DNA from: Saccharicrinis fermentans DSM 9555 = JCM 21142
GTDB lineage: Bacteria; Bacteroidota; Bacteroidia; Bacteroidales; Marinilabiliaceae
Assembly: GCF_000517085.1 (NCBI RefSeq)
Contig: NZ_KI912107.1
Span: 2,108,398 to 2,172,397, forward strand
Reading direction: 5' to 3'
DNA: 64,000 bases
Under the pieces are notes generated by a model. That model saw only the letters and a program-made list of their open reading frames with translations. It did no database searches and was not told the DNA's origin. The position numbers were made by a program, and so were the translations under genes. Below, one piece after another: positions 18,641 through 48,856 of this stretch. How positions within the stretch are numbered: the first letter of the stretch is position 1; each line of letters opens with the position of its first letter.

Positions 18641-18820
18641 ATGTTTATAATTTGTTTCTTAATGGTCATATGGAACTCGCCGTGATAATCATTCTCCTGT
18701 GTGAGAGATCACTCTCATGGCTCGTTTCATATGTTTAATTTTATCTTTCAATGCTCATATAGAACTCGCCTAAATGAATCATTCCCTTGTGTGTGAAACA
18801 ATTCTCATGGCGCACTTTAT
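18641..18820 (-). repeat. Repeat B, two tandem 90-bp copies
   Basis: On the minus strand two units of exactly 90 bp lie head to tail, bounded by ATAAAG (18820), ATGAAA (18730) and ATGAAA (18640). The last is the start of the 231-residue lipoprotein gene. Shared core: CACACAGGAGAATGATT and GGCGAGTTCCATATGACC. The unit nearer the gene could encode a 13-residue upstream peptide starting MKRAMRVISH. See the finding on element B. Confidence 0.9.
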
Positions 18821-18834
18821 AGTCCAATAGTATC

Positions 18835-20670
18835 CTATTTTATTTCTTTAAACTCAACTAATACCTGCCGGTAATTTTCAGGAAATAACGACACAATCAC
18901 GATGTTGTCTTTCGTCGATAAAACATATTGAGGCCTACCTTTCATCGTATACTCCTCTTCTTGAATCATTTTACTTAGAGAGTATTTCACCAGCTTAATA
19001 TCATCATAACCTGTTTCGTATCCATACGTGATACCATATATTGCATCTTTAGCTTCCTTAATGCAATAAGAACCATAATTATAATATAAATTACCATAAT
19101 CTTTTAGCTCTCCCAAATAAGTCATCTTATCATCAGCCGCATAAATAACACCATTATAATGTGTGATGCAGTAACTTCCAAGGTCTGAAATAGCGAATAT
19201 TTCGGAACTTAATGGATAAGATCCATGCTGCGAATCATTTTTAGAAATAGTTATTTCTCCATCGTCATCCCATTCATAATAAGCCATGCCTGCGGGCATT
19301 AGATTGGTTGTTATAGAAATAGCCGCATTTTCACCAGGAATCTTTCTAAATTCCAACTTACTATTTTCTCCAGTTTTACTTACCACATTACCGTTGGTCA
19401 AATCAACTACATGGCTACTTTCTCCCCAAACGCTATAATAGTTAGAGTTCAGCATTACCTTATCATTACCCATATACATAATATCGAAAGTTGATAAATT
19501 ATAGCTTATTTCCTTCAGTAGCGAGAGGTCTTGACTTGAATAAACATATATTTTTCCTACACCATCAACTGCATAAATATTCCCATCCTCTTCCTGATCA
19601 ACGTCTATAGCAACAATATCAGAAGGAAGATCTTTTTCGAATTCTATTGTCAACTCTTCTAAATCATATTTCAATAATTTTCCTTCGTTTTTACCCCAAA
19701 GTATCAATCCTTTTTGGTTCTTTGTAACAAAAGCATCATCAGGAACAAGATCAATTATCTCTCCGTTAGGTTGTTCAACTTTTATTAAATTACTGATACT
19801 GTATAGCTCTAAATAATTTCTCACCCGCACAGAATAATATACTTCATCTTTAAATGGAGGAAATAAATCTGTATACGTAATACAGTTTCTATCCTCGATT
19901 TGTGCAATTCTTTTTAATCCTATTTCGCCTTGAGAATCGCTACTAATATATATATCATACGATTTAAAATCATCACTTAAACTTGGCTCCCAGCTTAACG
20001 CTACGCAACCATATCTTCGTTCTGCTTTTAACAATTGAATTTTTTCTGGAGTTCCATATTGAATACGAAGAACCTTGCTATACTTTATACCATTTGTATT
20101 AGTCACATTTATTTGTAGGGTATGTAATCCAAGCGACAAATCATTCTCACTAATATCAAGCATTCCCTCTTCAGACAAAGTCCCTTCAAATAAAACACCA
20201 TCAATACTACTCGTGATGCTTATTTTTAAATCCTGATTGTTTTCAACATTGGTTCCGTCAATATTAAAACTAACCGTCTCGCTAGGTAAAAAAACATCGC
20301 AATCTTTTGGTTCAACCACCTGAACTACAGGAACATTGTCAGGAAGAACAGAAGAGCGTAATTGAAGGTTTAGATAATTCGTTCCATCATTTTTTTCAAC
20401 TTTTGCTTGGGCACCTCCATATAAAGGATTGTATGCATACACGGTATCTGCTAAATCGAAAGATCCGTTTAGTACGGCTATTCCAAGGTTATTGGTTGTT
20501 ACAACTTCCTTTTCCGGTTCAACAAACACATATGCACCTTCGATGGGTTCATTGTTGTAACTTACATTAACATATATTCTGTCTGGATCATGTAGAGTTC
20601 TTAATTCGTCTTTAGTACAAGAAAATAAGCTTAAGAAACATAAACTAATCAGTAATATTTTACACTTCAT
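18835..20670 (-). CDS. Large lipoprotein with Fn3-like and beta-propeller regions
   Basis: This 611-residue lipoprotein (MKCKILLISLCFLSLFSC, lipid Cys18) has an N-terminal transthyretin-like domain (about 28-105), an Ig-like domain (about 110-200), an Fn3-like domain (about 207-300, AERRYGCVALSWEPS) and a C-terminal propeller of six or so WD-like repeats (about 305-605). It is the first and largest member of the five-lipoprotein cluster. No enzymatic motif is visible; recognition of a polymer or cell-surface partner is the simplest guess. Confidence 0.65.
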   Translation of the reverse strand: MKCKILLISLCFLSLFSCTKDELRTLHDPDRIYVNVSYNNEPIEGAYVFVEPEKEVVTTNNLGIAVLNGSFDLADTVYAYNPLYGGAQAKVEKNDGTNYLNLQLRSSVLPDNVPVVQVVEPKDCDVFLPSETVSFNIDGTNVENNQDLKISITSSIDGVLFEGTLSEEGMLDISENDLSLGLHTLQINVTNTNGIKYSKVLRIQYGTPEKIQLLKAERRYGCVALSWEPSLSDDFKSYDIYISSDSQGEIGLKRIAQIEDRNCITYTDLFPPFKDEVYYSVRVRNYLELYSISNLIKVEQPNGEIIDLVPDDAFVTKNQKGLILWGKNEGKLLKYDLEELTIEFEKDLPSDIVAIDVDQEEDGNIYAVDGVGKIYVYSSQDLSLLKEISYNLSTFDIMYMGNDKVMLNSNYYSVWGESSHVVDLTNGNVVSKTGENSKLEFRKIPGENAAISITTNLMPAGMAYYEWDDDGEITISKNDSQHGSYPLSSEIFAISDLGSYCITHYNGVIYAADDKMTYLGELKDYGNLYYNYGSYCIKEAKDAIYGITYGYETGYDDIKLVKYSLSKMIQEEEYTMKGRPQYVLSTKDNIVIVSLFPENYRQVLVEFKEIK

Positions 20671-20907
20671 GAAAAACTAAATTAGGGATAAGTTAAAAGG
20701 GAATTCCTTCATTAAAATTCAAGGAAAATTAATATTTGTGCGTATCATAAAACAACTTTGCAATATAAACGCCACTTGTAAAGTAGGATATTAGGAAGAT
20801 AGAGCTTGCATATCATTAGTTTGGTTAATCGTTATCTGAGCACGAAAGTATAAAAATGAAATGAAATTGAAAAATGGATCCGTAGGTTCGTTTACAGAGC
20901 AGGCATA
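20671..20907. other. Intergenic region upstream of the lipoprotein cluster
   Basis: The region presumably carries the promoter of the minus-strand lipoprotein cluster. I found no full TTG-N19-TAnnTTTG match and no other structure. Confidence 0.3.
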
Positions 20908-20946
20908 AAAAAAGCACCCAAGATATTAATCCTAAGTGCTTTTTAT
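20908..20946 (-). terminator. Rho-independent terminator after tRNA-Leu
   Basis: On the minus strand an AAAAAGCAC...GTGCTTTTTTT hairpin lies 16 bp after the 3' end of the tRNA gene. The stem is about 8 bp and the U run is long. Confidence 0.8.
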
Positions 20947-20961
20947 CTTTATATTATGTAG

Positions 20962-21045
20962 TGCCCAGAACAGGACTCGAACCTGCACACCCTTACGAGC
21001 ATTGGCTCCTGAAGCCAACGTGTCTACCAATTTCACCATCTGGGC
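20962..21045 (-). tRNA. tRNA-Leu (anticodon CAG)
   Basis: The minus strand folds as a class II tRNA. Acceptor GCCCAGA pairs with TCTGGGC; the D arm has GGTAGACAC; anticodon stem TTGGC/GCCAA carries the loop TTCAGGA (anticodon CAG); a long variable arm is present; the T arm contains GGTTCGAGTCC. The discriminator base is A and CCA is not encoded. Length is 84 nt. Confidence 0.97.
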
Positions 21046-21212
21046 AAATGAGTAATCCAACAAAAAATAAGTGCTCACGAAATCCCCCTAAAGGATTAGC
21101 GCAAGCAAATTTAACAACAATAATTTATAAGTCCATCCAAAAAACAAACTAAAATCGCACAAAAATAGCTTCCAATACCATCTAATTTGCTTACACGAAC
21201 CCGTCATCCTAC

Positions 21213-22073
21213 TTATTCTCCTGTTTCAGAAGCACTCTCACGACAAATTTCGTCCAAAGATTTATGATTGCGCTTGGCCACTTTTTCAAAGTCCGACTCA
21301 AGCTCATATTTACCCGTCCTTATGCCTTCATAAATACCGCCAATAATGGTTCCTAAAAAATCGCCCAATGCAGCTTTGCGTTCTACAATATAATCTTCCA
21401 CAGAAATACTCTTATAAAACAAATTCAGTTGATATGCTTTATTGATAGCATCCGTTAGTTGTTGTTGGCTTACCAATTCACCACACAAATGATAGATTCC
21501 TGATAGCAAATCATCATTTGTAAGAAGCTTAAAGTACGCGTATGCAAGTTCATCTCTTGAAGTATAACCACACTTACCATCAGCTGCACAATTAATTATT
21601 CCACCCTTTTTTTTATAAACATCCACATATTCCAGGTCGGGCTCTATATAAATTCCATTTCTTCCTATAGCCCATTGCATGCCTGAATTTTTCACATCCT
21701 CCTCGGTTTGGCGATTGCTAGCCACAATGGGGCTAAAAGCATTCCCCTTCTCGGCACCAATAATACTGGTATAAACAATTTTTTTAACACCATTTTGCTT
21801 GGCAGCCTCAATCACATTACGATGTTGACCAACTCGTTTATCCGGATGATCCATGCCCGACACCAACAAAACAGCATCAACCCCCTTAAGAGCCATCAAA
21901 AAATCTTCTTTATTGTTATAATCACCCTTCCTAATTTCAACACCCAAAGTACTTGCTTTCTCGGGCGTACGAGCTATACCAATCACATTCTCCGCTCCTA
22001 TTTCAACTACTAATCTTTTAACAATGGCAGCACCTAAATTTCCGCTTGCTGCAGTAACCGCTATCTTCATCAT
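21213..22073 (-). CDS. NmrA/QorB-like NAD(P)-binding reductase
   Basis: This 286-residue atypical SDR has the N-terminal nucleotide-binding motif AVTAASGNLGAAIV (about 5-18) and the conserved segments VLLVSGMDHPDKRVGQHRN and IVYTSIIGAE. The length matches E. coli QorB (quinone oxidoreductase 2), which uses NADPH. It lacks a catalytic Tyr-x3-Lys pair in the usual place, as expected for the NmrA branch. It sits downstream of the racemase, separated by a palindromic repeat. Confidence 0.85.
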   Translation of the reverse strand: MMKIAVTAASGNLGAAIVKRLVVEIGAENVIGIARTPEKASTLGVEIRKGDYNNKEDFLMALKGVDAVLLVSGMDHPDKRVGQHRNVIEAAKQNGVKKIVYTSIIGAEKGNAFSPIVASNRQTEEDVKNSGMQWAIGRNGIYIEPDLEYVDVYKKKGGIINCAADGKCGYTSRDELAYAYFKLLTNDDLLSGIYHLCGELVSQQQLTDAINKAYQLNLFYKSISVEDYIVERKAALGDFLGTIIGGIYEGIRTGKYELESDFEKVAKRNHKSLDEICRESASETGE

Positions 22074-22202
22074 AATTTAATATTTTAATTTTAACGAAGG
22101 TAGGTGTTTGTACACCTAAAAGAAAGGTTAATTTACGCCAAACTAAGGTAAAAATGGAAGATAAAAAAGATCATTATTGCACTGTCATCATATCCTCTGC
22201 CC

Positions 22203-22267
22203 GTTTAACCCGAATGATACATTAGAACATCTCAATAGATTTTCTAATGCATTTTTCGGGATTAACT
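22203..22267. repeat. Repeat D, compact palindromic copy
   Basis: Two arms, TTAACCCGAATGATACATTAG and the near-complement CTAATGCATTTTTCGGGATT, make a hairpin of more than 20 bp around a loop of about 15 nt. The element ends at the racemase stop codon and may act as its terminator. Related sequences occur at 51456-51550, 54870-54930 and in the 61.6-62.6 kb tract. Confidence 0.8.
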
Positions 22268-22971
22268 CAAATACTAACACAACGCTTAACAATGGCATCC
22301 ACATGAATCCTTGTCGTATTCAGAAAAGGAAGATCCAAATACTTTTCGTGCTTAAACATCAAAGGAAACTCGGTACAGCCTAAAATGACTGCATCAATAT
22401 TATGCTTCTCTTTTAAATCCGATACGATCCCCAATATTTCATCTTTGGTTTCATCTTTAAAAACACCCAGTTCCAATTCCTTAAATAGTTTGGAGTTTAT
22501 CCATTCTATTTGTGCATTATCAGGAACAATGATCTCAATGTTTCGTCGCAGGAAATTTTGCTTATAAAAGTCACTCTGCATCGTAAATTTTGTTCCCAAC
22601 AAAGCACAACGTTTTGCTCCAATCGCTTGTGCTTTCTCAGCGCATACCTCCACAATACTAATCAAAGGTAAATCAACTTTAGCTTGAATTTCCTGAAACA
22701 ACAGATGCGGTGTATTGGCACTTAACACAGCAAAATTGGCTCCAGCACTTTTAATTTTATGCAAACACTGTATCAAATATTCGGACGCTTCGGTATATTT
22801 TTCATCCTGAAGTAAGCCAATAAATTTTGCCATCGTTACACTATAGACCACAATCTCAGGATAATTCAGACTACCATCACCATTCATCTTATCAAAAGCT
22901 TTGATTATTTCCTTATAATAATCAACGGTAGCCTCTGGTCCCAATCCTCCTAATATTCCAATTGTTTTCAT
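22267..22971 (-). CDS. Aspartate/glutamate racemase family protein
   Basis: From Met at 22971 (preferred because MKTIGILGGLGPEAT is the conserved N-terminus; six upstream codons follow a GTG) the protein is 234 residues. It has the C-terminal catalytic Cys in VILGCTEFPLM, while the first catalytic motif reads VLSANTPH, without the Cys of symmetric racemases. This asymmetric site resembles E. coli YgeA-type enzymes with Thr/Ser and Cys. It would interconvert L- and D-Asp or Glu; the substrate is not certain. Confidence 0.85.
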   Translation of the reverse strand: MKTIGILGGLGPEATVDYYKEIIKAFDKMNGDGSLNYPEIVVYSVTMAKFIGLLQDEKYTEASEYLIQCLHKIKSAGANFAVLSANTPHLLFQEIQAKVDLPLISIVEVCAEKAQAIGAKRCALLGTKFTMQSDFYKQNFLRRNIEIIVPDNAQIEWINSKLFKELELGVFKDETKDEILGIVSDLKEKHNIDAVILGCTEFPLMFKHEKYLDLPFLNTTRIHVDAIVKRCVSI

Positions 22972-23036
22972 TCGCTTTTCAATTAACACAACTATTTAAA
23001 CACTCTCACTTGCAATAACTTATCCATTACAAAAAA

Positions 23037-23477
23037 TTAGTATTTGATCCTGTTTAATATGGCCTTTCCATTTAATATTTGTTCAGAAAGCGATTTGATG
23101 GTTTCTGTTTTTGCAATCTCAAAAAATCCGTCACGTACAACTTTGTATTTATCATGCAAAGGACAAGGATTATCATTATGACATTCCTTTAAGCCAAATC
23201 CACACTTATGAAAACTAGCATCACCCTCAATCACATGTATTACTTTATACAAGGTAAGATCCGACTGATAATCATTAAAAAAGAATCCACCACCACGACC
23301 TTTCATGGAATCCATCAACTTATTTTTTGTAAGTATTTGGAGTATTTTAGCCGTATAAGCTTCCGGAGCTTCAATCTCTTTTGCTATTTCTCCCACTCCC
23401 GGTCTTTTTTCTTCCCAATTTCTCAATTGCACAAAAACCAAAGCCCTGATGGCATACTCGGTACTTTTCGACAACAT
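23037..23477 (-). CDS. nsrR: Rrf2-family NO-sensing regulator (NsrR-like)
   Basis: This 146-residue winged-helix regulator begins MLSKSTEYAIRALVFV. Its cluster-ligand motif has Cys92, Cys99 and Cys105 (KCGFGLKECHNDNPCPLH), almost the spacing of NsrR [Fe-S] ligands. It is encoded 3 bp after the NO-repair gene and faces a NO reductase across a shared control region, which strongly supports NO sensing over other Rrf2 roles such as IscR. It probably represses both promoters until NO damages its cluster. Confidence 0.82.
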   Translation of the reverse strand: MLSKSTEYAIRALVFVQLRNWEEKRPGVGEIAKEIEAPEAYTAKILQILTKNKLMDSMKGRGGGFFFNDYQSDLTLYKVIHVIEGDASFHKCGFGLKECHNDNPCPLHDKYKVVRDGFFEIAKTETIKSLSEQILNGKAILNRIKY

Positions 23478-23480
23478 AAC

Positions 23481-24206
23481 TTATTCGTTTATTAATTCTC
23501 GCTCCAAATTTAACGCTTTCTTAAATAGAATGTTGTTTTCTAAATGAATATGTCGATGTAAATCATTTTCAAAATCCTTCAAGGTTTGATAACTTACCCT
23601 ATATGTACTACATCCATCTGCAGGACAAGTATAGGAAGATGTTAGTTTAGCAATCTTTTCAAAACGTTCCCCTTCACTTTCATGTTCTGCCTGCATCACT
23701 TCAATGGCACTTTTCCCTTTATCGAAAACTACTACACCACTAATACCTTCCTTTTTATATTTTACCATTTTCCGTATATAAGGAAAAAGAATAAGTTCCT
23801 CTTTTTTCATATGGGCACTTAAATTTACCGCAGTCGCATCAAACAGTTCTCTAATTTCAAAAAGCTCAGGATGTCTTTCTCCATGTACATCACATAGCTT
23901 CTGCAACTTCTGTTGAATAAAAGGAATATTCTCGGTTACATAGGCATGGTGTCTTTTCTCTATATAATCACAGAGCACATCCAATTCCAATCCGTCGATA
24001 TACGCTGAATCAGGATCCTTTTGTGCGATCAATGCTTCTAATTCAGGAAGCAGCTGACTAACATCTACCTTTGATCTTTCACAGGCTTCCTTCAAACTAA
24101 TGCCACCTCCACAGCAAAAATCAATATTATTTTTATCAAATAATTGAGCCGTTTTAAAATTCGCTTTAACAATTTCTCCAACGCTTGTTTTTTCATTTAC
24201 ATTCAT
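23481..24206 (-). CDS. ric: Iron-sulfur cluster repair di-iron protein (RIC/ScdA/YtfE)
   Basis: This 241-residue cytoplasmic protein has an N-terminal ScdA_N domain with the CC motif NNIDFCCGGG (Cys31-Cys32) and a hemerythrin-like di-iron domain. Visible metal ligands are in RHHAYV, HMKKEELILFPYI, MQAEHESEGERF and DLHRHIHLENNILF. The family repairs nitrosylated Fe-S clusters and reacts with NO. It is first in the operon with nsrR, transcribed from the divergent promoter shared with norZ. Confidence 0.93.
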   Translation of the reverse strand: MNVNEKTSVGEIVKANFKTAQLFDKNNIDFCCGGGISLKEACERSKVDVSQLLPELEALIAQKDPDSAYIDGLELDVLCDYIEKRHHAYVTENIPFIQQKLQKLCDVHGERHPELFEIRELFDATAVNLSAHMKKEELILFPYIRKMVKYKKEGISGVVVFDKGKSAIEVMQAEHESEGERFEKIAKLTSSYTCPADGCSTYRVSYQTLKDFENDLHRHIHLENNILFKKALNLERELINE

Positions 24207-24288
24207 GATATCATCTTTTATTTTTTACAAAGATATCATTTTTTTATAAAAGGACATGTATATCTTTTTATAAAAAATGATATCTTTG
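24203..24288. promoter_or_regulatory. Mirror-image divergent promoter/operator between ric-nsrR and norZ
   Basis: A 24-bp arm at 24228-24251 and a 23-bp arm at 24266-24288 are inverted copies, differing only by one A in a run. Each arm ends in TATCTTTG reading outward, a TAnnTTTG -7 box, and contains GATATC within AAGATATCAT. A further ATGATATCAT palindrome overlaps the ric start codon (24203-24215). The half-site AAGATATCATTT resembles the enterobacterial NsrR half-site AAGATGCATTT. Coordinated NsrR control of both units is inferred. Confidence 0.7.
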
Positions 24289-24482
24289 CCAGCATTCAAC
24301 CCAACTCATATGTTAAAACCTCTTCTTGCGTATTGAAATAGCACAAAGAAAGCTTTACGGAAATAAAGCGCGACACCTTTAGGTGAATGAAAGTAAAGCA
24401 AGGCCGTTTTTTAATTAGATGCAATTTCATTGTAGAACAGATTTTCTAATACATGGGCTGGTATAACCTAAACACAAAAGTC

Positions 24483-26726: not shown

Positions 26727-26765
26727 CTGACCCATAAAATTATTAAAAGCAAAACTTACAACTAC

Positions 26766-26803
26766 AAAAAAAGGCTGGCCTGCATTACGCAAGTCAGCCT
26801 TAT
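26766..26803. terminator. Bidirectional terminator
   Basis: AAGGCTG (26771-26777) pairs with CAGCCTT (26795-26801). An A7 run on one side gives a U run on the minus strand, and an AU-rich run follows on the plus strand. It lies between the convergent norZ and M49-like genes. Confidence 0.7.
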
Positions 26804-26908
26804 ATTTTATGATATAAAATCATCAACAACGAAGCTATCCACCTTAAAGAACAGGCATGCTACATCAAATATTTTCAAGTAAAATATTCCCCATCTCCCA
26901 TCAAATCA

Positions 26909-28554
26909 CTACCACTGAAGCATTTTCACACCTTGTTCAAAAACAATATCACGTGGTATACCAGCTTCAGCAATCTTATCCAAATCTGCTTGTAATTCAG
27001 GTTGAATAAAACCAAGTTCCTGGATCATCTTTTGCGCTTTGGCATAATCACCATCTCCTTGCAACACCAATATCTCTCTCGAGAGCTCAATCATCGCTAT
27101 GCGCATCTTATCAAAATCCACTTTGTATTTTCCACTGGCTTCATCCTTGGTAAATGCTCCTTTATCTTTAAAATAATTAAAACGGATCATATTGGCTTTT
27201 CCGTGCGAACTAGATGCTCCAAAACGAATAGATCGGAACAAACCGGCCATAAATGTCACATAGTTATCCATCAACACCTGATCTTCACCCAGCTCGTTCA
27301 TTTGTGTCAACATATCCACCATATACAAACCTAAAATATCAGCTTTTCCTTCTTCAATGGCCGTTGATGTCTCTTTCAAGGCCTCACGAACAGTACCCGA
27401 ACCATTCAAGGTATTCTTAATTCCCAAACCGTGCGCTACCTCATGAAACATGGTATTCTCAAAAAAAGCGTCAAAAGTCACGTTATTTTGTTGTTCATCA
27501 ACAATCAGCAACTCACTAATGGGCAGTAAGATCTTATCAAACTTAGCTCTCATAGAGTTCTTCAATTGTATCTTACGGCTTCCTTTTTGCAAATGTACTT
27601 TAGGATCGTTAGGCAAATTAATGGCAATTGTTTTACTACCTGCATTACAATCGCCACCATAATAAACCACATCATAAGCTCCTAAATCGGAATCACATCC
27701 TGGAATTTCTGCTTTATATTTAGCATCCACTGGCAGTTCCTTTTGAAGCTTAGGCAATAAAGATGCAAAATGCGCCAGCTTTTCCGACCATTCCATATCT
27801 TTAATCAAGATATATGCTTCAAAGGATGTTTTTGCACCCAAAAGAGCATCTTCATAGTTTTCTATAGGCCCCACCACAAAGTCTATCTGATTATTCTTCA
27901 TACTCATCCAAGCCAAATCACTCTCAAAGTACTCGCTATTTAATAATGCTTTCGCTCTTTTCTCCAAATAATCTTTAAAACCATCATCCTCAGCCAAGAC
28001 TGCTGCTTGTTTAAGCAAGTCTGCTGCTTTTTTCAACGCTCCGGCATAGGCCACGTGATAGGGGATTACTTTCAGTTTTCCCTCACCATCTCTTTCAATA
28101 ATCGTATACTGACTATTTTTTGCCTCATCTTCCAAAGCTTCAAATTCCTCCTTGGTCATATCATGTGGATAAAATTGCGCACCCGCTGGCTTCTTACCAA
28201 TTCCTTCAATGAAAGAGGAATTTCCATTCAGCCGTTCCCATGGACCATAATTAATTTCCAGGTACTTTTTGACATACGGGTCATCCACCCTCGACATCAA
28301 AGCTTGCTTATCTCCCCATGCTTGTTGCCAGAAAAGATCATCCATAACTTGAGCCGCTTCAAACAAGAGAGGTAACATTTTTTTTGATTGACAGATAAGG
28401 AAGAAACGTCAGCTGTAAGTTTAAACGAAGCAAACTCTTCCACTTTCTCCTTTACATTTGGGATAGATGCTGCATATTTGGTTTCCTCAGCCTCAGGACA
28501 CTGACAAGAAAACAAAAAAACACCCAACCCGAATAGATACAAATAATTCTTCAT
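26909..28554 (-). pseudogene. M49-like zinc peptidase lipoprotein, frameshifted at an A8 tract
   Basis: Two overlapping frames make one gene. The first (28554 downward) gives a lipoprotein signal (MKNYLYLFGLGVFLFSC) and 60 mature residues ending VNQKK. The second (from 28378) gives 489 residues with HEVAHGLG (HExxH zinc site) and EEGKAD (the third ligand Glu, like EECRAD/E of dipeptidyl peptidase III relatives). The minus strand has 8 A before TGTTACC; nine would join CAA-AAA-AAA-ATG-TTA in one frame of about 549 codons. It may be a true mutation, slippage-corrected expression or a base-calling error. The catalytic domain itself is intact but would lack export. Confidence 0.8.
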
Positions 28555-28723
28555 TTTTTCTATATTTTGTTATTGGATACTATTGACAGCAAATATAGTT
28601 AATTTTAACCGGGCTCCACACTGAATTTTATCCACTTTCAGGCAGCCCCCTCTATTAAAACAGGGGCAACCATAAAATCACTATAAAAAAAACACCTCAT
28701 CAAAGAATAAAAATGTTCTTTCA

Positions 28724-30982: not shown

Positions 30983-31079
30983 AAGGTGATTTTAAGATGG
31001 GTTATACTTACATAGTAAACATAATACTCTACAGCCTATACAATTGTACACGCCCACAAATACACTCAAAACCTATGTA

Positions 31080-31332
31080 GTGGCTGCAAGAAAACGACTG
31101 TTTTTTCTGTCTTTGATAAGAAACGAGCATGAATTTTAGCATTCTAAAATACACACAGAAGAATGATTAAAATTCATCGGGAGTTCCATATGACCATTGA
31201 AAGACAAATTATAATCATATGAAAGCTTCAAAGACAAGGCTTTCGATATTTTTGAAACCAAGGAGTTTACTGATTGTAAATGACTGTTTCAAAAATGAGA
31301 ATAACGCAGTATTTGAAGTCTTCTTGCAAAGA
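31080..31332. repeat. Element A copy 1, interrupted by element B
   Basis: The ends GTGGCTGCAAG and CTTGCAAAGAC are those of the 153-bp element A (see 38654 and 61218). A 7-bp direct repeat CTATGTA flanks it (31073-31079 and 31333-31339), suggesting a target duplication. After removal of a 100-bp insertion at 31124-31223 the remainder is 153 bp. Confidence 0.85.
31124..31224 (+). repeat. Element B inserted inside element A
   Basis: This copy of element B has the arms ATGAATTTTA and TAAAATTCAT around a CATTCT...AGAATG inner stem. GAAA is present on both sides (31120-31123 and 31221-31224), so the insertion point in element A and a short duplication can be read directly. It shows that element B is or was mobile. 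Confidence 0.85.
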
Positions 31333-31355
31333 CTATGTACTGAGCTAACAATACA

Positions 31356-31736: not shown

Positions 31737-31844
31737 TGATCGGGTATCTTTATAACTTTTGCAGTAATTTAATGAATTAATGATGAAGATTTCGCATAAA
31801 CAACCAACAAATACAAACATTTGTTCATAATCAATAGATAATAG

Positions 31845-31868
31845 CTGCAAGAAAACCACTGTTTTTTT
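31845..31868. repeat. Partial element A end
   Basis: A stretch starting GCTGCAAGAAAACCACTGTT matches the left terminus of element A; the rest is absent. It probably marks a deleted copy. It supplies the false N-terminus of the longer frame at 31356-31859. Confidence 0.6.
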
Positions 31869-31879
31869 AATTGGTCAGA

Positions 31880-33226: not shown

Positions 33227-33344
33227 TATCTTCTCTAATATTTATTTTGCTAAATATTTGCCAAATATATTTTAAAACTCTGACACTATTGAATTATTTA
33301 TATGAATCCATCCGGCTTTTTTATGATCGTTTATTATAAGGCTA

Positions 33345-36011: not shown

Positions 36012-36020
36012 ACGCATAAA

Positions 36021-36956: not shown

Positions 36957-36984
36957 GAAAATAAATCAATAATAAAGTCAAAAA

Positions 36985-38640: not shown

Positions 38641-38653
38641 TATTCCTTACAGA

Positions 38654-38806
38654 GTGGCTGCAAGAAAACTACTGTTTTTTTTGTCTTTGATAAGAAAATT
38701 TCAAAGACAAGACTTTCGATATTTCTGAAACCAAGTAGTTTACTGATTGTAGATGACTGTTTCAAAAATAAGAATAACGCAGAATTTGGAGTTTTCTTGC
38801 AAAGAC
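38654..38806. repeat. Element A copy 2 (153 bp)
   Basis: Termini GTGGCTGCAAGAAAAC and GTTTTCTTGCAAAGAC. The inner hairpins TGTCTTTGA/TCAAAGACA and TGAAAC...GTTTCA are conserved with copies 1 and 3. It occupies most of the gap between the symporter and the FAD oxidoreductase genes and has no coding capacity. Confidence 0.9.
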
Positions 38807-38834
38807 TACATAGAATACTATAAAATATAAAACA

Positions 38835-41114: not shown

Positions 41115-41172
41115 CAAAATACGGAACAAGCCTCCATATCATGAAACACCTTATAAAAGATAATTAGAATAT

Positions 41173-41366
41173 ATGAAACGAACATGAATTTTAGCATTCT
41201 AAAATACACGCAGGAGAATGATTAAAATTCATCGAGAGTTCCATATGGCAATTGAAAGATAAATTTAAACATGAAACGAGCCATGAGAGTGACCTCTCAC
41301 ACAGGTGAATGATTATCACGGCGAGTTCCATATGACCATTAAGAAACAAATTATAAACATATGAAA
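41173..41366 (+). repeat. Element B, two tandem copies ending at a GH2 start codon
   Basis: ATGAAA occurs at 41173, 41271 and 41361; units of 98 and 90 bp lie between. The first unit has the A/T-rich stem ATGAATTTTA/TAAAATTCAT, the second the GTGA/TCAC-type stem. The last ATGAAA is the start of the GH2 gene. The sequence left of 41173 reads GAATATATGAAA, so an original start site may have been duplicated. Confidence 0.9.
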
Positions 41367-43070
41367 TACATCTATCTAATAATAATTGCATTCAGCATTC
41401 ACATATACACAACAGCACAACAGCCTTCTATTTCGTTAAATGGAAGATGGAATTTTTTTGCATCTAACACCCAAACTGAATATGAAGTTCTGGCTAACTA
41501 TCAAATCCATTGGGATCGCATTACAGTTCCAGGCAACTGGGATGTGATGGACAAATATGCCACATATGTAGGAAAAGGATATTACCAAAGAGAATTTGAA
41601 GTGCCTGTTTCTTGGAAAGGCAGGCAAGTGTATATTAAATTTGATGCTGTATATCAAACTTCAAAAGTTTGGGTTAATGGGAAACAATTGGGAGAACATA
41701 TTGGAGGCTATACTCCTTTTGAGTATAACATCTCGGACATAGTAAATTATGACAAGCCTAATACAGTATTGGTGATGGCTGATAATTCATACAAAAGAGG
41801 AGCTTGGTGGGCATGGGGAGGAATTAGTCGTGATGTCTCCCTAAATGTTAGCAATGATGTTAGAATGATCTATCAGCATATTACGGCTATCCCAGATTTT
41901 GATGCAAACAGCGTAAAGTTTATCTTTAAATATAAACTTGAAAACAACTCCTGTAAAAACTACAAAGGACGTATTATCTCGAAAACTTCAGATAAGTCAG
42001 ACCCCATCATTACAAAAATATCTTTGGATGGTCACCAGACCAAAACCGAAGAAGTGACTTTTGAAAATAAACTTTCGGATTATGAATTATGGGATTTCGA
42101 TAACCCAAAGTTATATACCTTAAACAGCAAACTGGAAATAAAAGGAAAAGTATTTGGTTCTCTCTCCAATCAATTTGGCATTCGCAAACTGGAGGCTCGT
42201 GGAGAACAATTATTCCTCAACAACAAAGTAGTCAGAATGAACGGAATAAATCGTATTCACGACCACCCCCTCTATGGAAATACGGAACCCGATCAGTTAG
42301 TCAAACAGGATATGCTCGACATTAAGTCAATGGGCTGCAATTTTGCCAGATTAATGCATGCTCCTTTATCTAAAAATTTATTAAACCTATGTGACAGTAT
42401 CGGTTTTCTAATCATCGAGGAGATTCCTGTTTGGGGTAATGATGATCCTCAATCATTTCCTGACAATCCCCTTACCGAAAAATGGCTAAAGGAAATGATT
42501 GAAAGAGACTATAACCACCCTTGCGTAGTTGGTTGGAGCGTGGGCAATGAGTTAAGAGATTCACTACCTAACTGGGGGAAAAAACTTTTAACATCTGCTC
42601 AGCACGATTATATTGTTTCTATGCTTGATTATATCGATATCCTAGACACTACACGTCTAAAAACCTACGTCAGTCTCACCTGCTATAGTGAAGGTGTAAA
42701 CTACAGTAATGAACCCATTGATAAAGTAGACTTAATTTGCTTAAATTCATATGGTAACTCCCCCCAAGCAGTACGTACAACGCATGAAAATTTTCCAGGT
42801 AAACCTATCTTCTTATCTGAAGTAGGCCTGAATCAAATAGGACCAGCTCCTGATGCAATGCTTCAGGATAGGCTGATAAGGTATATGAATGAAATGAAAA
42901 CATATCCTTATTTGGTTGGCATATCTTACTGGTGCTATAACGACTATCGGAGCAACTATAAGGGAACGCCGGAATCCGGCTTTCGTGAATGGGGAGTAGT
43001 GGATGAACAGCGAAAACCCAAGACTGCTTATCAGCAATTAAAAGAAATCTACAAAAATTGGAATCAATAA
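41361..43070 (+). CDS. GH2-family glycoside hydrolase (beta-galactosidase-like)
   Basis: This 569-residue secreted protein has a signal peptide (about 1-19, ending TTAQQ), a sugar-binding jelly roll (about 25-170; LNGRWNFFA and ITVPGNWD), an Ig-like domain (about 175-280) and a TIM barrel. The acid/base is Glu397 in VGWSVGNELRD and the nucleophile Glu487 in PIFLSEVGLNQ. It is short for GH2, ending right after the barrel. In this context it probably removes beta-linked galactose from galactan oligosaccharides. It is followed after 18 bp by a larger GH2. Confidence 0.88.
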   Translation: MKYIYLIIIAFSIHIYTTAQQPSISLNGRWNFFASNTQTEYEVLANYQIHWDRITVPGNWDVMDKYATYVGKGYYQREFEVPVSWKGRQVYIKFDAVYQTSKVWVNGKQLGEHIGGYTPFEYNISDIVNYDKPNTVLVMADNSYKRGAWWAWGGISRDVSLNVSNDVRMIYQHITAIPDFDANSVKFIFKYKLENNSCKNYKGRIISKTSDKSDPIITKISLDGHQTKTEEVTFENKLSDYELWDFDNPKLYTLNSKLEIKGKVFGSLSNQFGIRKLEARGEQLFLNNKVVRMNGINRIHDHPLYGNTEPDQLVKQDMLDIKSMGCNFARLMHAPLSKNLLNLCDSIGFLIIEEIPVWGNDDPQSFPDNPLTEKWLKEMIERDYNHPCVVGWSVGNELRDSLPNWGKKLLTSAQHDYIVSMLDYIDILDTTRLKTYVSLTCYSEGVNYSNEPIDKVDLICLNSYGNSPQAVRTTHENFPGKPIFLSEVGLNQIGPAPDAMLQDRLIRYMNEMKTYPYLVGISYWCYNDYRSNYKGTPESGFREWGVVDEQRKPKTAYQQLKEIYKNWNQ

Positions 43071-43088
43071 TATGCTATTAATTAAAAA

Positions 43089-46000
43089 ATGAAATATCTA
43101 CAAATTACATGTGTAATACTAACCCTTTTTAGCTCTATTAACGCTCAAAATCGTTCCAATAAAGAGCAATTATCTTTAAACGGAAACTGGAAGTTTCATA
43201 CCATCTATGGCGAGGGTTCTAATTACATGAATATTCAAGAAACAGCAAGTGATCTTGTGATAGACAACCAGGATCCTAATGTTGAGGTACAAGGTAAATG
43301 GCAGACCTCTCAAAAAGGAGCGCGCGACACCCAATTTTATGGTACCGACTATAGGCAGCACTATTTTTCATTAACTGACCTACAAAAAGGTGGTCACTCA
43401 GATAGTTCATATGTCCGTTTTTACCCACATTTCACAAAGTCTGGATACTACGAGGTTTTTACAAAATATCCATTTGCATCTCACCTCACAGCTCAATATA
43501 ATATAAACCATGCAGGTGGCATCACCACCAAGTATGTAAGTCAAAGAGTATTCTGTGGAGAATGGAATAGCCTAGGTATATATGAATTTAACACTTCCCA
43601 TAAAAACTATGTGGAGCTCACTGCCATTGTAAGTGGCACTGTTGCTGCTGATGCAGTCATGTTCAGAGAAATATCAAAAGAAAAATATATACGCGCAAAA
43701 GAAGAACCTAAACAAGTGTATCTAAGTAATTTTGATGACACTGATTGGCACCAGCTAACGGTACCAGGACATTGGGGAATGCTAAATGAATATTCAAACT
43801 ATACCGGCATTGGTTGGTATCGAAAAACACTGGTTCTTCCAGCGTCCTGGACTAAAAATTCTGATGAAAGATATTATTTAAAGTTTGGCGGTGTTTATCA
43901 TCTTTCCAGGGTCTATCTGAACGGTAAATTTATGGGAATAAATAGAGGTGGCTTTACTCCATTTGAATTTGATGTGACCGAAGCCCTCAACTTCGAAGGC
44001 AAGAATGTCATTGTTGTTCAAGCCGATAACAGTGCCATCGTAGGAGCTACTTGGAACTGGGGGGGAATCATCAGAGATGTAAGACTGACAAGGAACAAAG
44101 ATATTAGAATTAACTATCAGTACATCCATGCAGAACCAAATCTAAAAAATGGTACCGCACTGATAAAATTAAAGGTAAAAGTAGAGAATAATTCTTCGCA
44201 AAAACGAAGAATACAAGTAAACGCTCAAATTCTCAACGAAAAAAGAATAGGAACCTTAAAGGGCAGCCTCGAAATAGATCCTCATACGTCAAATGACATT
44301 CACTTAGAAACAATGCTAAAATCAAAAGATGTGGAATTATGGCATTTTGACAACCCTAAACTTTACCAGGTAAAAACAAGTATTACAGAAGGGAAAACGA
44401 TCTTAAATCAACGACAAGATTATTTTGGAATACGAAAAATAGAGCTAACAGATTCTCAAATGTTACTCAATGGAGAACCGGTTCGCTTGGCAGGATTTAA
44501 CCGAGTAAGTGAACACCGTTTTTGGGGTTCTTCGGAACCATTAGAAGTGCTGGAAAAGGATGTGGACCTAATGAAAGAAGCGGGCGCTAATTTTATGAGA
44601 ATTATGCACGGAACACAAAACGAAAAACTCATTGATTTATGCGATAAAAAAGGAATAATGATTTTTGAAGAAATCAATGTAAGAGATCTGGATAATGATG
44701 AATTTAGGGCCAACTACTATCCACTTGCTCAATTTGAAAAAGAAACAAACAGTAAGCTTGACAGCGAAAATGAGGAAATTTTAATGCTCGATGAACCCTA
44801 TGTGAGACTTACCGATAAACATGGCATATCTGTAAAAGAAAAAAATTACTTTCTTGCTAAATATTGGCTAAAAGGAATGATTGAACGCGACATAAATCAC
44901 CCCAGCATTATTGGTTGGAGCGTTGGTAACGAATTAAATAACCATTATGAATATGCTAAAGCAGCTATTGATTATGTAAAAAAAGATTTGGATCCCTATC
45001 GACTACTTACCTGTGTAAGTAATTCAGGACGGAAAAAAGAATATACTCCCCAAACCGATGCAAATACTCATGTAGATTTAATCATGCACAATATGTACCG
45101 TTGGCAAGGTGATCCGCAAGAGATATTAACCACCTTAAGAACTAAATGGCCCGACAAACCTATTTTTATATCTGAGTTTGGTTTCGACCCATTTCCCTCA
45201 ACAGCCTTGGACGCTGATAAGGAAATTTTCTCGGAATGGATCAACCATTTCAGACATAAAAACGAATTTGTGATTGGAACATCCATGTGGACTTTCAATG
45301 ATTACAGAAGCGGATATGCAGGTACAACAGCTGAAGAAAACAGGGTGTGGGGAGTAATTACCTCATGGAGACAAAAAAGAAGGCTATTTCCACGCATAAA
45401 AAAAGAACATGCACCGGTAAAGGATATCGAAATCTCAAATATTGACTTTGAGAAAAACACTGCCAATGTAAGAATCCCTGTAAGAAGCGTCAGCGATTAC
45501 CCTAGTCATACCATGCGTAACTATAAATTAGTCTACCAATTTAAAAATAGTAAAGGTCAAACAATTTTCGATAACTATATTCTTCTGCCTGATATAAAAC
45601 CAGCGGACAAAGAATGGCAAGGTACTATTTCATGGAAGGCATTACCCTCCGACCTATTGGAATTAAGGGTCAGCCTGGTAACACCCACAAACTATTCCCG
45701 TTTTGATAAAACAGTCTCTTTCCGACAAGCAATCACACCTGAAATATCAAATATCGTTGCGGGAAAAAATGCAGTGCGAATCCAATTCAATCATGTACCT
45801 AATGCTACTGAATATTTCGTTAAGTATACAGCTAATAATGAAGAAGAAAAAGAATCTTACAAAACAATTGATCGTTATATAGATATTAAAGGCCTTGAAG
45901 ACACCAAGGAATATAGCTTCCAACTATATGCCACAAATGACAAAGGAATTAGTAAAGCATCTAAAACAGTTAAAGCTAGTACAACCACAAAGAGCTTACC

Positions 46001-46247
46001 TCCTATTATTTGGGATGCTTTTATAAGTAATCACAAATTGGTCATTGGATACTCCAGCGATTTTAACGATGGAATATACACCATAAAATATGGAAACGAC
46101 GAAAAAAAACTGAATAAAATATTTACCTCAAACGTAAGAGGTATGCTATCGATAGATGTAGAAGCAGAAGAAAAAGTTTATTTTAAGATGAAGCGAATGA
46201 CAAAGAATGGAGAAAGCAAATGGTCGGAGATAGTGGAAGTCCATTAA
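43089..46247 (+). CDS. GH2-family hydrolase with inserted golvesin-like and C-terminal Fn3 domains
   Basis: This 1052-residue secreted enzyme has a signal peptide (1-19). The GH2 jelly roll starts LSLNGNWKFHT and is interrupted by about 140 residues (56-195) of golvesin-like character (LVIDNQDPNVEVQGKW, NHAGGITTKYVSQ, GEWNSLGIYEF, VAADAVMF), then resumes at HQLTVPGHWG. The TIM barrel has acid/base Glu615 (IGWSVGNELNN) and nucleophile Glu696 (PIFISEFGFDP). An Fn3-like domain (about 885-970) and a short beta tail follow. The insert may bind polysaccharide. Confidence 0.85.
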   Translation: MKYLQITCVILTLFSSINAQNRSNKEQLSLNGNWKFHTIYGEGSNYMNIQETASDLVIDNQDPNVEVQGKWQTSQKGARDTQFYGTDYRQHYFSLTDLQKGGHSDSSYVRFYPHFTKSGYYEVFTKYPFASHLTAQYNINHAGGITTKYVSQRVFCGEWNSLGIYEFNTSHKNYVELTAIVSGTVAADAVMFREISKEKYIRAKEEPKQVYLSNFDDTDWHQLTVPGHWGMLNEYSNYTGIGWYRKTLVLPASWTKNSDERYYLKFGGVYHLSRVYLNGKFMGINRGGFTPFEFDVTEALNFEGKNVIVVQADNSAIVGATWNWGGIIRDVRLTRNKDIRINYQYIHAEPNLKNGTALIKLKVKVENNSSQKRRIQVNAQILNEKRIGTLKGSLEIDPHTSNDIHLETMLKSKDVELWHFDNPKLYQVKTSITEGKTILNQRQDYFGIRKIELTDSQMLLNGEPVRLAGFNRVSEHRFWGSSEPLEVLEKDVDLMKEAGANFMRIMHGTQNEKLIDLCDKKGIMIFEEINVRDLDNDEFRANYYPLAQFEKETNSKLDSENEEILMLDEPYVRLTDKHGISVKEKNYFLAKYWLKGMIERDINHPSIIGWSVGNELNNHYEYAKAAIDYVKKDLDPYRLLTCVSNSGRKKEYTPQTDANTHVDLIMHNMYRWQGDPQEILTTLRTKWPDKPIFISEFGFDPFPSTALDADKEIFSEWINHFRHKNEFVIGTSMWTFNDYRSGYAGTTAEENRVWGVITSWRQKRRLFPRIKKEHAPVKDIEISNIDFEKNTANVRIPVRSVSDYPSHTMRNYKLVYQFKNSKGQTIFDNYILLPDIKPADKEWQGTISWKALPSDLLELRVSLVTPTNYSRFDKTVSFRQAITPEISNIVAGKNAVRIQFNHVPNATEYFVKYTANNEEEKESYKTIDRYIDIKGLEDTKEYSFQLYATNDKGISKASKTVKASTTTKSLPPIIWDAFISNHKLVIGYSSDFNDGIYTIKYGNDEKKLNKIFTSNVRGMLSIDVEAEEKVYFKMKRMTKNGESKWSEIVEVH

Positions 46248-46410
46248 TAACTATTTTACATTTGTATGTAGATTGTATTGCATTTCAACAAACAAGTATA
46301 CCCCATCATGTATACCTATTTGTAAATCTAAAAATACCTAAGGAATCAACACTGAACTATATTCGCCTGTAATAAAGGCAAGATTCATAATGACATTTAA
46401 AAGATATATC

Positions 46411-47493
46411 ATGAAATATTTAATTGCTATCATAGCTATCTTACTGACAATGAATTCGTGTCAGACGCATTCAAAAAAATCAAAAGAATTTAAACTACAG
46501 TTGGGTAAGGTTGCCCAACATTCTATATTTAGCGGCGGCGATACCATAACCCATTGGGGAGGCTCATTGGTAAAAGGTGAAGATGGTCTTTATCACATGT
46601 TCTACGCTCGATGGAAAAAAAATTTGGGATGGGCTTGGGTTACCCATTCTGAGATTGCACACGCTGTGTCCGCATCTCCCTTTGGCCCTTTTAAACATAA
46701 AGACATTGTGCTTCCAGCCCGAGGTGCAACATATTGGGACGGTTTGTGTACTCATAATCCCACTATTCATAAGTTTGATGGAAAATATTACCTATACTAT
46801 ATGGGAAATACGGGCGATGGAATAAATCCCTGTGTGCCAGGTAAGTTAAAGTACAACTGGAAACACCGTAATAATCAACGTATCGGCGTAGCTGTAGCTG
46901 ATAATCCCAATGGTCCCTGGAAACGCTCTGATGCCCCCTTAATCGATGTAAGCTCCGACAGCACAGCTATGGATGCTTTATTGGTAAGCAATCCCTCCAT
47001 TACCCAAGGTCCGGATGGAGCCTACTTGATGGTATATAAAGCGGTTGGAAAAAAGAAGAAAGGAATAGCCGGTGGACCTGTTGTTCATTGTGTTGCTACT
47101 TCCGATAACCCTACTGGACCATTTAAAAAATATGATTTTCCGGTATTTACAGCCGAAGGTCATGACTTTCCGGCTGAAGACCCTTCTATTTGGTATCAGG
47201 ATGGAAAATATAGAGCCATCGTAAAAGATATGCACGGCGCATTTACCAGTGCAGGCCAAGCATTGGTGCTATTTGAGTCAAACGACGGTTTCCACTGGAA
47301 ATTGGCTTCTAAACCTTTGGTTTCAAAGCTTGAGCTAAATATGAAAAACGGTAAACATTTAAAATTAAATCATTTGGAACGCCCCCAAATATATAAAGAA
47401 AATGGTCAAGCCATTGCCTTACTCTGTGCCGCTGATACGATTGATTCAAAGGGGGTAATACATGCATGGAATGTTCAAATCCCATTAAAATAA
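46411..47493 (+). CDS. Five-bladed beta-propeller glycosidase-like lipoprotein
   Basis: The ATG at 46411 is preferred because MKYLIAIIAILLTMNSC is a clean lipoprotein signal (lipid Cys17); the ATG at 46390 only adds seven residues. The 360-residue protein has propeller repeats such as WDGLCTHNPTIHKFDGKYYL, SNPSITQGPDGAYLMVYKA, PAEDPSIWYQDGKYRAIVK and HLERPQIYKENGQAIALLCA. These acidic strand starts are GH43/GH117-superfamily-like, but I cannot assign a CAZy family or the catalytic residues. It is a close paralogue of the gene at 48851. Confidence 0.7.
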   Translation: MKYLIAIIAILLTMNSCQTHSKKSKEFKLQLGKVAQHSIFSGGDTITHWGGSLVKGEDGLYHMFYARWKKNLGWAWVTHSEIAHAVSASPFGPFKHKDIVLPARGATYWDGLCTHNPTIHKFDGKYYLYYMGNTGDGINPCVPGKLKYNWKHRNNQRIGVAVADNPNGPWKRSDAPLIDVSSDSTAMDALLVSNPSITQGPDGAYLMVYKAVGKKKKGIAGGPVVHCVATSDNPTGPFKKYDFPVFTAEGHDFPAEDPSIWYQDGKYRAIVKDMHGAFTSAGQALVLFESNDGFHWKLASKPLVSKLELNMKNGKHLKLNHLERPQIYKENGQAIALLCAADTIDSKGVIHAWNVQIPLK

Positions 47494-47499
47494 TAAATC

Positions 47500-48753
47500 A
47501 TGAAAAAAAATATTTACAGAAGTTTAATATTGATCATTGGCATACAGGTCATTGGCCTAAACATCCATGCCCAACTACCCTCTTCAATTGATACTACGCA
47601 AAATTGGTTCCTCTCGTGGAGCGATGATTTCAATGAGGAAGATCCACAATTAGATAATAAATGGGAAAGTCAGAATGGACCAAGTGGGCATATTTTATGT
47701 AGCCGCTGGAGAGAGAATGCTGTTGTAAAGAATGGTGTTCTTGAACTTCAGGCCAGAAAAGAAAAACGAGGGGGACAGGAATGGACTGCAGGAAACATCT
47801 GGACCAAAAAACGCTTCAAATACGGGTATTTTGAATGTCGTTACAAATATGCGGCAGCTGAAGCCACCAATAATTCATTTTGGTTAATGACCAAAGGTAA
47901 TGAACCTACTGAAGGAAAAAGATTTGAAATCGATATAAACGAAGGACATTATCCCAACGAGGTAAATACCAATATTCATCAATGGTCCGACATAACCATT
48001 GACAAGCAAGGAAAAAAAACACATTATTCCTACCATAAAGGTTTTCCTTTTGGGGCAAAACCAGGTTATTCTATTCAACTGGAAATTCCCATATCTGTCA
48101 AGAAAGTCAGATTGACATCCAGAAACCATGCACGGTTTAACATAGGCGAGTTCCGCGTTTATGGAGTAAATGATGGTAAGTACCCCGATGTGATGTCACC
48201 CACAGCCCACAAAGACATAGCCGGATTAAAAAATTTAGCTTCAGCAGAAAATGTAAAAATCACATCCAGCGGTTCATATAAAAACAATCAGTCAGAAAAT
48301 AAACTGACAGATGGTAATCCCAAGTCTGCTTGGAGCACCCAAGAAATGGGTGAAAAATGGGTCCAATTTGAATGGGATGAAGACATCACAATCGGATGTA
48401 TTCAATTTTTAAATGGATGGCAAGACAAACATAATAATTGGCACGGCCTAATGAGTAATTATCAGTTACAGTACTTCAAAAATGGTAAATGGATAGATAT
48501 TACAGAATTGGATGTGACCCAGAGTTACAATTTTGCAGAAGAATTTCACACCTATGGCTTATTATGGAATGAAAAAGAAATTATTTTTTATTTTGATGGA
48601 AAAGAAATCCGAAGAGAAGTTAACTCCTTCTGCTATAGCGAAACACCTATATGGTTAAGCTTGGCAATTATCCCTTGGTCTGGCCCGGTGACCGATGCCA
48701 TAGATGGTACAAGCATGAAAGTTGACTATGTAAAGTATTATCAACAAAAATAA
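47500..48753 (+). CDS. GH16-family endo-hydrolase with an internal discoidin-like insertion
   Basis: This 417-residue secreted protein (signal about 1-24) has the GH16 catalytic motif EIDINE (Glu143 nucleophile, Asp145, Glu148 acid/base). The second half of the jelly roll, EEFHTYGLLWNEKEIIFYFD, only appears at 348-367. Residues about 182-342 between them read as an F5/8C (discoidin) domain in permuted order: KKVRLTSRNHARFNIGEFRV first, then NLASAENVKITSSG and WVQFEWDEDITIGCIQF. Endo-cleavage of agar-, porphyran- or carrageenan-type galactan is inferred. It lies 6 bp after the preceding propeller gene. Confidence 0.85.
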   Translation: MKKNIYRSLILIIGIQVIGLNIHAQLPSSIDTTQNWFLSWSDDFNEEDPQLDNKWESQNGPSGHILCSRWRENAVVKNGVLELQARKEKRGGQEWTAGNIWTKKRFKYGYFECRYKYAAAEATNNSFWLMTKGNEPTEGKRFEIDINEGHYPNEVNTNIHQWSDITIDKQGKKTHYSYHKGFPFGAKPGYSIQLEIPISVKKVRLTSRNHARFNIGEFRVYGVNDGKYPDVMSPTAHKDIAGLKNLASAENVKITSSGSYKNNQSENKLTDGNPKSAWSTQEMGEKWVQFEWDEDITIGCIQFLNGWQDKHNNWHGLMSNYQLQYFKNGKWIDITELDVTQSYNFAEEFHTYGLLWNEKEIIFYFDGKEIRREVNSFCYSETPIWLSLAIIPWSGPVTDAIDGTSMKVDYVKYYQQK

Positions 48754-48759
48754 ACAAGC

Positions 48760-48856
48760 ATGAAACGAGCCATACTAAAGTATTTCTCACACAGGAGTAT
48801 GATTAGTTTTGGTGAGTTCCATATGGCCTTTAAAAGAAAATTATAAAGCTATGAAA
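48760..48856 (+). repeat. Element B, single copy ending at a lipoprotein start codon
   Basis: ATGAAA at 48760 and 48851 bound a 91-bp unit. Its stem reads ACTAA/TTAGT instead of the GTGAT/ATCAC or ATTTTA/TAAAAT of other copies. The core CTCACACAGGAGTATGATT is kept. The right ATGAAA starts the next gene. Confidence 0.9.

Follow-up and report, generated by a model that had tools for sequence, protein, structure and literature searches.

The subject of this study is element B, a short repeat found in six copies in a 64,000-nucleotide stretch of the genome of Saccharicrinis fermentans DSM 9555 = JCM 21142 (the window; contig NZ_KI912107.1, positions 2,108,398 to 2,172,397). Our principal conclusion, to which we assign a probability of about 0.65, is that element B belongs to the short, non-autonomous mobile elements, is carried by bacteria of the Bacteroidales type, folds by means of its own guide and inserts 3′ of the hexamer ATGAAA. 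Judged from sequence comparison, its copies lie directly 3′ of a presumptive host ATGAAA (or AAGAAA or GTGAAA), the host hexamer remaining on the left and a second ATGAAA standing at the right end, so that at a gene start Met-Lys would be rebuilt and a new AT-rich leader would come to lie ahead of it. If this conclusion is correct, mobility together with the rebuilding of start codons is its most secure part, and we regard that part as very probable.

Copy number and position at start codons

Within the S. fermentans genome (5.98 Mb; the own genome, G000), the core GAGTTCCATATG, with up to one mismatch allowed, was found at 194 sites and its reversed pattern at 21, the left end ATGAAACGAGCCATG at 163 sites with at most two mismatches, against 4 for the control, and the joint pattern running from the core to ATGAAA at 98 sites, against none. 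The position of the element was determined for the 106 distinct exact-core copies in the loci fetched from this genome, an open reading frame (ORF) being taken as one of 80 aa or more or one open to the end of the locus. The ATG of an ORF lies 29-38 nt past the start of the core in 70 of the 106 (at 37 or 38 nt in 58 of these), and the ORF begins ATGAAA in 64 of the 70. The remaining copies comprise 11 that abut another copy on the right, 10 that lie in a second dispersed repeat, element A, and 15 that do neither; with the tandem-left and element A copies set aside, the share at start codons rises to 70/85. The left hexamer was ATGAAA in 62 of the 106 copies, another hexamer in 14 and unrecognised in 30. 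The original prediction had been that the element inserts at, or rebuilds, start codons and places its own 5′ leader before the gene, and it had named a genome-wide search with the core as a check; that search puts the majority of copies at start codons, and neither of the two observations said to speak against the idea, most copies lying away from starts and empty sites without ATGAAA, was made in the own genome.

Preference for starts was further assessed by comparing complete copies only (left ATGAAACG and right ATGAAA both intact) with the other ATGAAA sites of the same loci, as the ratio of sites at ORF starts to intergenic sites. This ratio was 42:5 for the element and 41:111 for the background in the own genome (Fisher, 1e-14), where the other 11 of the 58 complete copies lie inside called ORFs (five), at the left of a tandem (five) or in element A (one). 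The corresponding values were 9:2 and 1:16 in G020 (p 7e-5; 14 of 95 copies used), 7:7 and 0:16 in G035 (p 0.002; 16 of 280), and 10:5 and 11:30 in G029 (p 0.01; 29 of 92). Among the matches listed for named genomes there are 83 copies in 80 loci, of which 78 have no other copy following them, and 55 of these 78 are placed at an ORF measuring 80 aa or more, or at one open for at least 40. In G025, 16 of the 22 copies other than tandem-left ones are intergenic and away from an ORF start, for which reason we take the target to be the motif and not the start codon as such. The target is thus ATGAAA (also AAGAAA, GTGAAA and a few others), and starts are favoured in most genomes, by targeting, by selection or by both, without being obligatory. 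To this extent the predicted aim at start codons needs rewording, as does the idea that both edges are ATGAAA of equal standing: the right ATGAAA appears to be brought by the element, and the left hexamer to be the host's.

Filled and empty sites, tandems and orthologous loci

The fetched loci contain at least 19 copies of element A, and element B is present in 11 of these. In the own genome element A provides eight empty and 11 filled sites: the empty site reads TTTGATAAGAAA followed by GCTTC (one empty copy reads GATATGAAA), and the filled site reads TTTGATAAGAAA, then CGAAC...CATATGAAA, then GCTTC, with a second, tandem copy in two cases. The host AAGAAA is kept on the left and the element's ATGAAA stands on the right. 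A single insertion, later duplicated along with element A, probably gave rise to the filled copies, and the comparison therefore counts as one event. At another locus (L025) a copy identical to the consensus of the young subfamily described below is bounded by GTGAAA on the left and ATGAAA on the right.

Tandem neighbours have one ATGAAA in common, and 22 of the 58 complete own-genome copies lie directly to the right of another copy. Among paralogues in L118 there is either one copy or two, and L077 resembles a tandem that collapsed when its cores recombined. A second, diverged repeat of the own genome, ATGAAACTGGCATGG ... GAAGTTTCGCTAATTTTTAA(C)..ATGAA (L250:695, L093:1573, L105:215, L045:1425), terminates where ORFs of 241, 468 and 370 aa start, or immediately to the left of an element B copy.

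Comparison with orthologous loci that lack the element had also been proposed as a check. Orthologue starts in same-genus genomes show ATGAAA at 19 of the 26 loci that were given as loci among 45 matches to relatives (leuB 7/7, argF 8/8, aqpZ 2/2, ksgA 1/1, pepT 1/7 and comB 0/1), and the leuB and argF matches begin at or beside the first residue; but the upstream regions are too diverged for base-by-base alignment, so these loci do not amount to clean empty sites. The argF start carries the element both in the own genome (L216) and, as a degenerate copy, in G008 (L195), by common ancestry or by repeated hits. To the left of the element at pepT in the own genome (L189), ATGACAAATAT resembles the pepT start of several relatives (ATGACAAACATAAAAGAT); it may have survived from the native start or have arisen by chance.

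Predicted fold, guide and covariation

The predicted structure has two stems with the guide, GTTC-CATXXG, between them. Stem I pairs AAC-GA-GC with GC-GA-GTT around an inner hairpin that is variable, the tandem GA being invariant on both arms; it spans the left boundary, as the GTT of the guide pairs with the host-derived AA of the target and the first C of the element. Stem II pairs CATXXG with CX′X′ATG and stops three bases short of the right boundary, and the invariant C between GTT and CAT is a linker. From the known behaviour of tandem G.A pairs, the GA that is invariant in the two arms, with CGAG facing CGAG, suggests that the sense strand is the folded one. Along with its pairing in stem I, the guide sequence GTTCCAT is complementary to ATGAAAC, the target, at all positions but one. 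Specificity of the guide for the three bases that precede the target was considered and rejected: 20 of 108 solitary copies agreed overall, against 6.2 after shuffling, with no within-genome excess in G000, G025, G029 or G035.

The guide and the right end have changed jointly through at least 10 combinations. In relatives, the core CAT-ATG occurs with the right end CAT-ATGAAA, CAT-CTG with CAG-ATGAAA and CAT-GTG with CAC-ATGAAA; further combinations are CCG/CGG, CAG/CTG, TCG/CGA and TAG/CTA, and named genomes add AAG/CTT, ACG/CGT and TTG/CAA. Among 179 copies, drawn from 11 genomes, 149 show full complementarity between guide and right end, where shuffling gives 32.3 on average and 47 at most; of the 83 named-genome copies among the matches listed, 65 show it. 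The 21 single mismatches comprise nine that are G.T on the sense strand, six A.C and six others. When 35 of 50 representatives were aligned with two window copies, RNAalifold returned both stem I and stem II without being supplied with the guide; the pairs of the structure are formed in 95.6 % of cells (14-36 % with slid partners), the covariation score is 0.272 (0.074 shuffled), 50 cells are double-changed (15 shuffled), and the pair 80-116 occurs as AU, CG, GC and UA. The RNA folds of four copies gave z values of -3.1, -2.1, -1.9 and -4.4, two of the four surpassing all 200 shuffles. On the evidence of these alignments and predicted folds, the sense strand can fold into stems I and II, the guide arm covarying with the right end.

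Probable recent mobility

Twenty-six copies in the own genome are at least 93 % identical to one consensus, and 21 of them precede ORFs of 80 aa or more. A pattern for this subfamily had 135 matches in the own genome, against 1, 1, 1, 6, 13, 2, 12 and 12 in eight same-genus genomes. The near-identity of the copies and the expansion of their subfamily are, at the sequence level, signs of recent mobility. All six stem II pairs are kept in 29 of 29 young copies and in 14 of 29 older ones, an exact left end having been required for entry into either set. These figures agree with a pairing that would serve movement and then decay.

Copies in the window

All six predicted copies are present, with small corrections to their coordinates (Table 1). 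The unit lengths given for them, 90, 90, 90, 91, 98 and 100 bp, agree with the ATG-to-ATG units that could be computed for five copies (90, 101, 98, 90 and 91), except that the unit in element A is 101 and not 100. The right edge is the start of the next gene at the three loci for which this had been claimed, those of a 231-aa ORF, a GH2 gene and an ORF with a partial GH43 match. ORFs of the window are from a mechanical ORF caller; the only match of the 231-aa product, to CarboxypepD_reg, is below the cut-off. With 35 copies of other genomes and two window copies as its input, a covariance model detected five of the six window copies, all with E values no higher than 1.6e-4, and did not report copy 2, an older copy on the minus strand. 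The caller starts the ORF at 48809-49969 at a TTG inside copy 6, 42 nt upstream of the ATGAAA; element copies with the 37-nt spacing leave such an upstream frame open, so starts may be misannotated.

Table 1. Element B copies, the guide of copy 5 and element A sites in the window; copy spans run from left hexamer to right hexamer
Feature	Position	Strand	Remarks
Copy 1	18635-18730	-	Young subfamily; left ATGAAA 18725-18730, core 18667-18678, right ATGAAA 18635-18640, the start of the 231-aa ORF (18640)
Copy 2	18725-18820	-	Older copy lying immediately upstream of copy 1; ATAAAG as left hexamer (by eye); partial repeat match
Copy 2, right end			ATGAAA also belonging to copy 1
Copy 3	31118-31224	+	Lies in element A; AAGAAA of the host at 31118-31123, followed by the inserted unit (31124-31224), which ends in ATGAAA
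Copy 4	41173-41276	+	Left member of tandem; inner hairpin of the same type as copy 3
Copy 5	41271-41366	+	Young subfamily; right ATGAAA 41361-41366 is the GH2 gene start
Copy 6	48760-48856	+	Right ATGAAA 48851-48856 starts the ORF with partial GH43 match
Guide of copy 5, GTTCCATATG	41325-41334	+	From predicted fold and covariation
Copy 5 guide, stem I	41275-41277		GTT predicted to pair with AAC at this position; C is the linker
Copy 5 guide, stem II	41358-41363		CATATG predicted to pair with CATATG at this position, start codon included
Empty site, another element A copy	38684-38697	+	GATAAGAAA, no element B after it
Empty site, third element A copy	61248-61261	+	GATAAGAAA, then GCTTC
Element A	31075-31335		Dispersed repeat
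Element A	38649-38808		Dispersed repeat
Element A	61213-61372		Dispersed repeat

Distribution

Matches were found in 41 of 71 genomes of the family. In a sample of the phylum 11 of 395 genomes match, the own genome among them; G234 (nine matches), G103 and G390 have, by inspection, a matched guide and right end, and the other seven matches look like chance. At least 120 stretches match in named genomes. The 80 loci among the matches listed come from Marinilabilia, Anaerophaga, Thermophagus, Geofilum, Saccharicrinis, Breznakibacter and Paludibacter, and further carriers among them are Parabacteroides, Proteiniphilum, Mariniphaga, Dysgonamonadaceae, a Prevotella metagenome-assembled genome and Bacterium BMS3Abin03. 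Viral contigs gave no match to a strict pattern, and phage and plasmid records none to one window copy.

Search for the mobilising enzyme

A Y1 transposase or its RAYT relative was sought as a linked mobiliser in the own genome, in 61 genomes and in 31 scanned loci, with 20 loci read in whole or in part; none was linked, and the candidate was rejected. Y1 genes occur in 51 of the 61 genomes, element-free ones included, and G014 and G022 carry elements with no Y1 match. Elements do lie near or in Y1 genes at L157 and L188 (G008), L219 (the left end about 1.1 kb off), L224 (in a broken RAYT-like gene) and L237 (G035); we judge these copies to be neighbours of the Y1 genes and not their ends. By motif reading, the only match of G025 is subclass-2.6-like, G035 has a 1014-aa protein besides an IS200-type gene, and in the own genome the matches are short or broken apart from one intact 202-aa gene adjoining cas-like genes, so that no Y1 type common to the three is seen. 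The RAYT-like genes for which flanks were printed mostly carry other palindromes; those of subclass-2.6 type (L219, L221, L223, L225, L229 and L231, all in relatives) are flanked by palindromes of their own, resembling GGATTGCAAATCC or CACGATACAATCGTG. Weak Y1_Tnp matches also occur within proteins of 1014-1399 aa (G035:C198, G020:C335 and G029:C10; L234-L236), at least two of which adjoin, by eye, other large genes such as an ATPase/OLD-like gene in L235.

A reverse transcriptase as universal mobiliser was likewise rejected, four of the 11 carriers tested having no match: G025 (107 copies), G009, G013 and G022 (76 % complete). The other seven have matches. The own genome has 29, several of them clustered near 3.25-3.33 Mb of C3 and on C4. 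A longer, autonomous copy was looked for at 21 left ends in 20 regions and rejected, as each has a right half within about 115 bases, that of L240 being doubtful; six loci without a recognised left half, picked by eye, showed no transposase-like ORF by eye.

Comparison with known systems and proposed mechanism

Other systems also insert at short motifs. HEARO/IscB-associated elements insert at ATGA or GTGA; they include a long RNA and a gene for an endonuclease and greatly exceed element B in size. Group II introns insert 3′ of a site of about 6 nt that is read by an internal guide; element B, by contrast, is of about 90 nt without a known ribozyme core, and the four carriers without a reverse-transcriptase match mark a further difference. 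No account of such an element was found in the literature, among open-licence papers only, so that this absence is weak evidence. In several respects element B resembles the ends of IS200/IS605 elements, its membership of that family being tentative. According to PMC6006769, the guide of these elements contacts both the left target and the right end, and the likeness would lie in apparent insertion 3′ of a short motif, in predicted folding near the ends and in a candidate guide for left target and right end. In the same account the guide is a tetranucleotide 5′ of each hairpin, whereas element B has one guide between two stems; its pairing is of 6 bp and covaries, its match to the left target is one of complementarity only, no Y1 gene lies in it or is linked to it, and it shows no strand bias. 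The REP sequences associated with TnpA_REP (RAYT) are also short, folded, multi-copy and non-autonomous, and a Bacteroidetes subclass, 2.6, has 'atypical' structures (PMC6006769). A GT[AG]G foot is missing from the element B consensus, whose final hexamer is a fixed ATGAAA, and the subclass-2.6-like genes seen here are flanked by other palindromes, with single element copies near or in such genes at L219 and L224.

We envisage that the guide would read first the target (GTTcCAT against ATGaAAC) and then the element's own right end, and that one folded single strand could set both cleavage sites for an enzyme supplied in trans, by a route like single-strand 'peel and paste' transposition. New copies would often enter at the right end of an old copy, since that end is itself a target, and generate tandems; insertion at a start codon would be tolerated because the reading frame is untouched. 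Within this scheme an IS200/IS605-like (HUH/Y1) enzyme using a single-strand route is our best, and tentative, guess, its cognate gene not having been found.

Evaluation of alternative explanations

Several observations weigh against the conclusion that element B is a guide-folded mobile element. No mobilising gene was found, the Y1 genes being unlinked to the element. Two of the five covariation measures are at shuffle level (double-change pairs 4 against 4.0, further pair types 11 against 10.9), the single-stranded DNA fold is not significant (z -1.67), and solitary targets within G000, G025, G029 and G035 do not match the guide upstream of the ATG. Start preference is not significant in G025 (6:16 against 3:31, p 0.13; 30 of 107 copies used). 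A lagging-strand bias beyond that of the genes was not seen, in a test limited by the position at gene starts (codirectional were 18 of 26 copies of the young subfamily and 55 of 100 among those listed, against 136 of 215 ORFs). The element A and L025 boundaries are also compatible with a 4-nt duplication of GAAA, and the partial retention of stem II in older copies leaves room for a regulatory use.

That use would be as a cis-regulatory RNA leader, in which the start codon is masked by stem II and freed when the guide pairs with the left ATGAAAC, the translational switch being selected and the spread secondary. The start codon does lie within a paired region, the copies are positioned before genes, the RNA folds of two of four copies exceed every shuffle, and the six pairs persist in 14 of the 29 old copies. 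Near-identical copies nevertheless precede unrelated genes and occur in element A, pairing decays with age, most of the non-tandem-left G025 copies (16 of 22) are intergenic and off ORF starts, and there is no Rfam family (no match in the window at gathering scores, or in nine element loci at E up to 1); we consider this explanation unlikely, if the strongest of the alternatives. Host replication could instead have produced the copies by template switching at the common ATGAAA and the stems without a dedicated enzyme, which would account both for a host hexamer on the left with the element's on the right and for the failure to find a mobiliser; since two precise switches at a 6-base identity would be hard to achieve without an enzyme for 26 near-identical copies, this appears improbable. 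Lower still do we place a retroposed element resembling a short interspersed element, copied via RNA by a reverse transcriptase: the unit is folded and RNA-like and the own genome has its 29 reverse-transcriptase matches, but G025, G009, G013 and G022 have none. Least credible is a remnant of a classical DDE transposon (a miniature inverted-repeat transposable element) with ATGAAA as a 6-bp target duplication, as many copies with ATGAAA at both edges might imply, for the ends CGAGC... and ...CX′X′ATGAAA are not inverted repeats, the element A copy has AAGAAA on the left and ATGAAA on the right, and the covarying guide would be left unexplained.

Significance

Mobile elements usually disrupt genes or lie between them, whereas element B lands on the start codon and restores it. 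It could in this way spread at low cost while many unrelated genes receive one standard leader in the region where translation starts. The joint change of guide and right end offers direct, mutable tests of recognition by a short folded strand, both of the target and of the strand's own end, and the annotation of start codons in carrier genomes calls for caution. It is conceivable, though we would not favour it, that element B represents a new kind of start-codon-aimed, guide-directed element, in which a single guide reads the host ATGAAA and a covarying right end, the enzyme belongs neither to the Y1 transposases nor to the reverse transcriptases, and leaders are supplied to many Bacteroidales genes. 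If so, one ATGAAA would be exchanged for another and the 5′ leader of the gene swapped, with the protein untouched.

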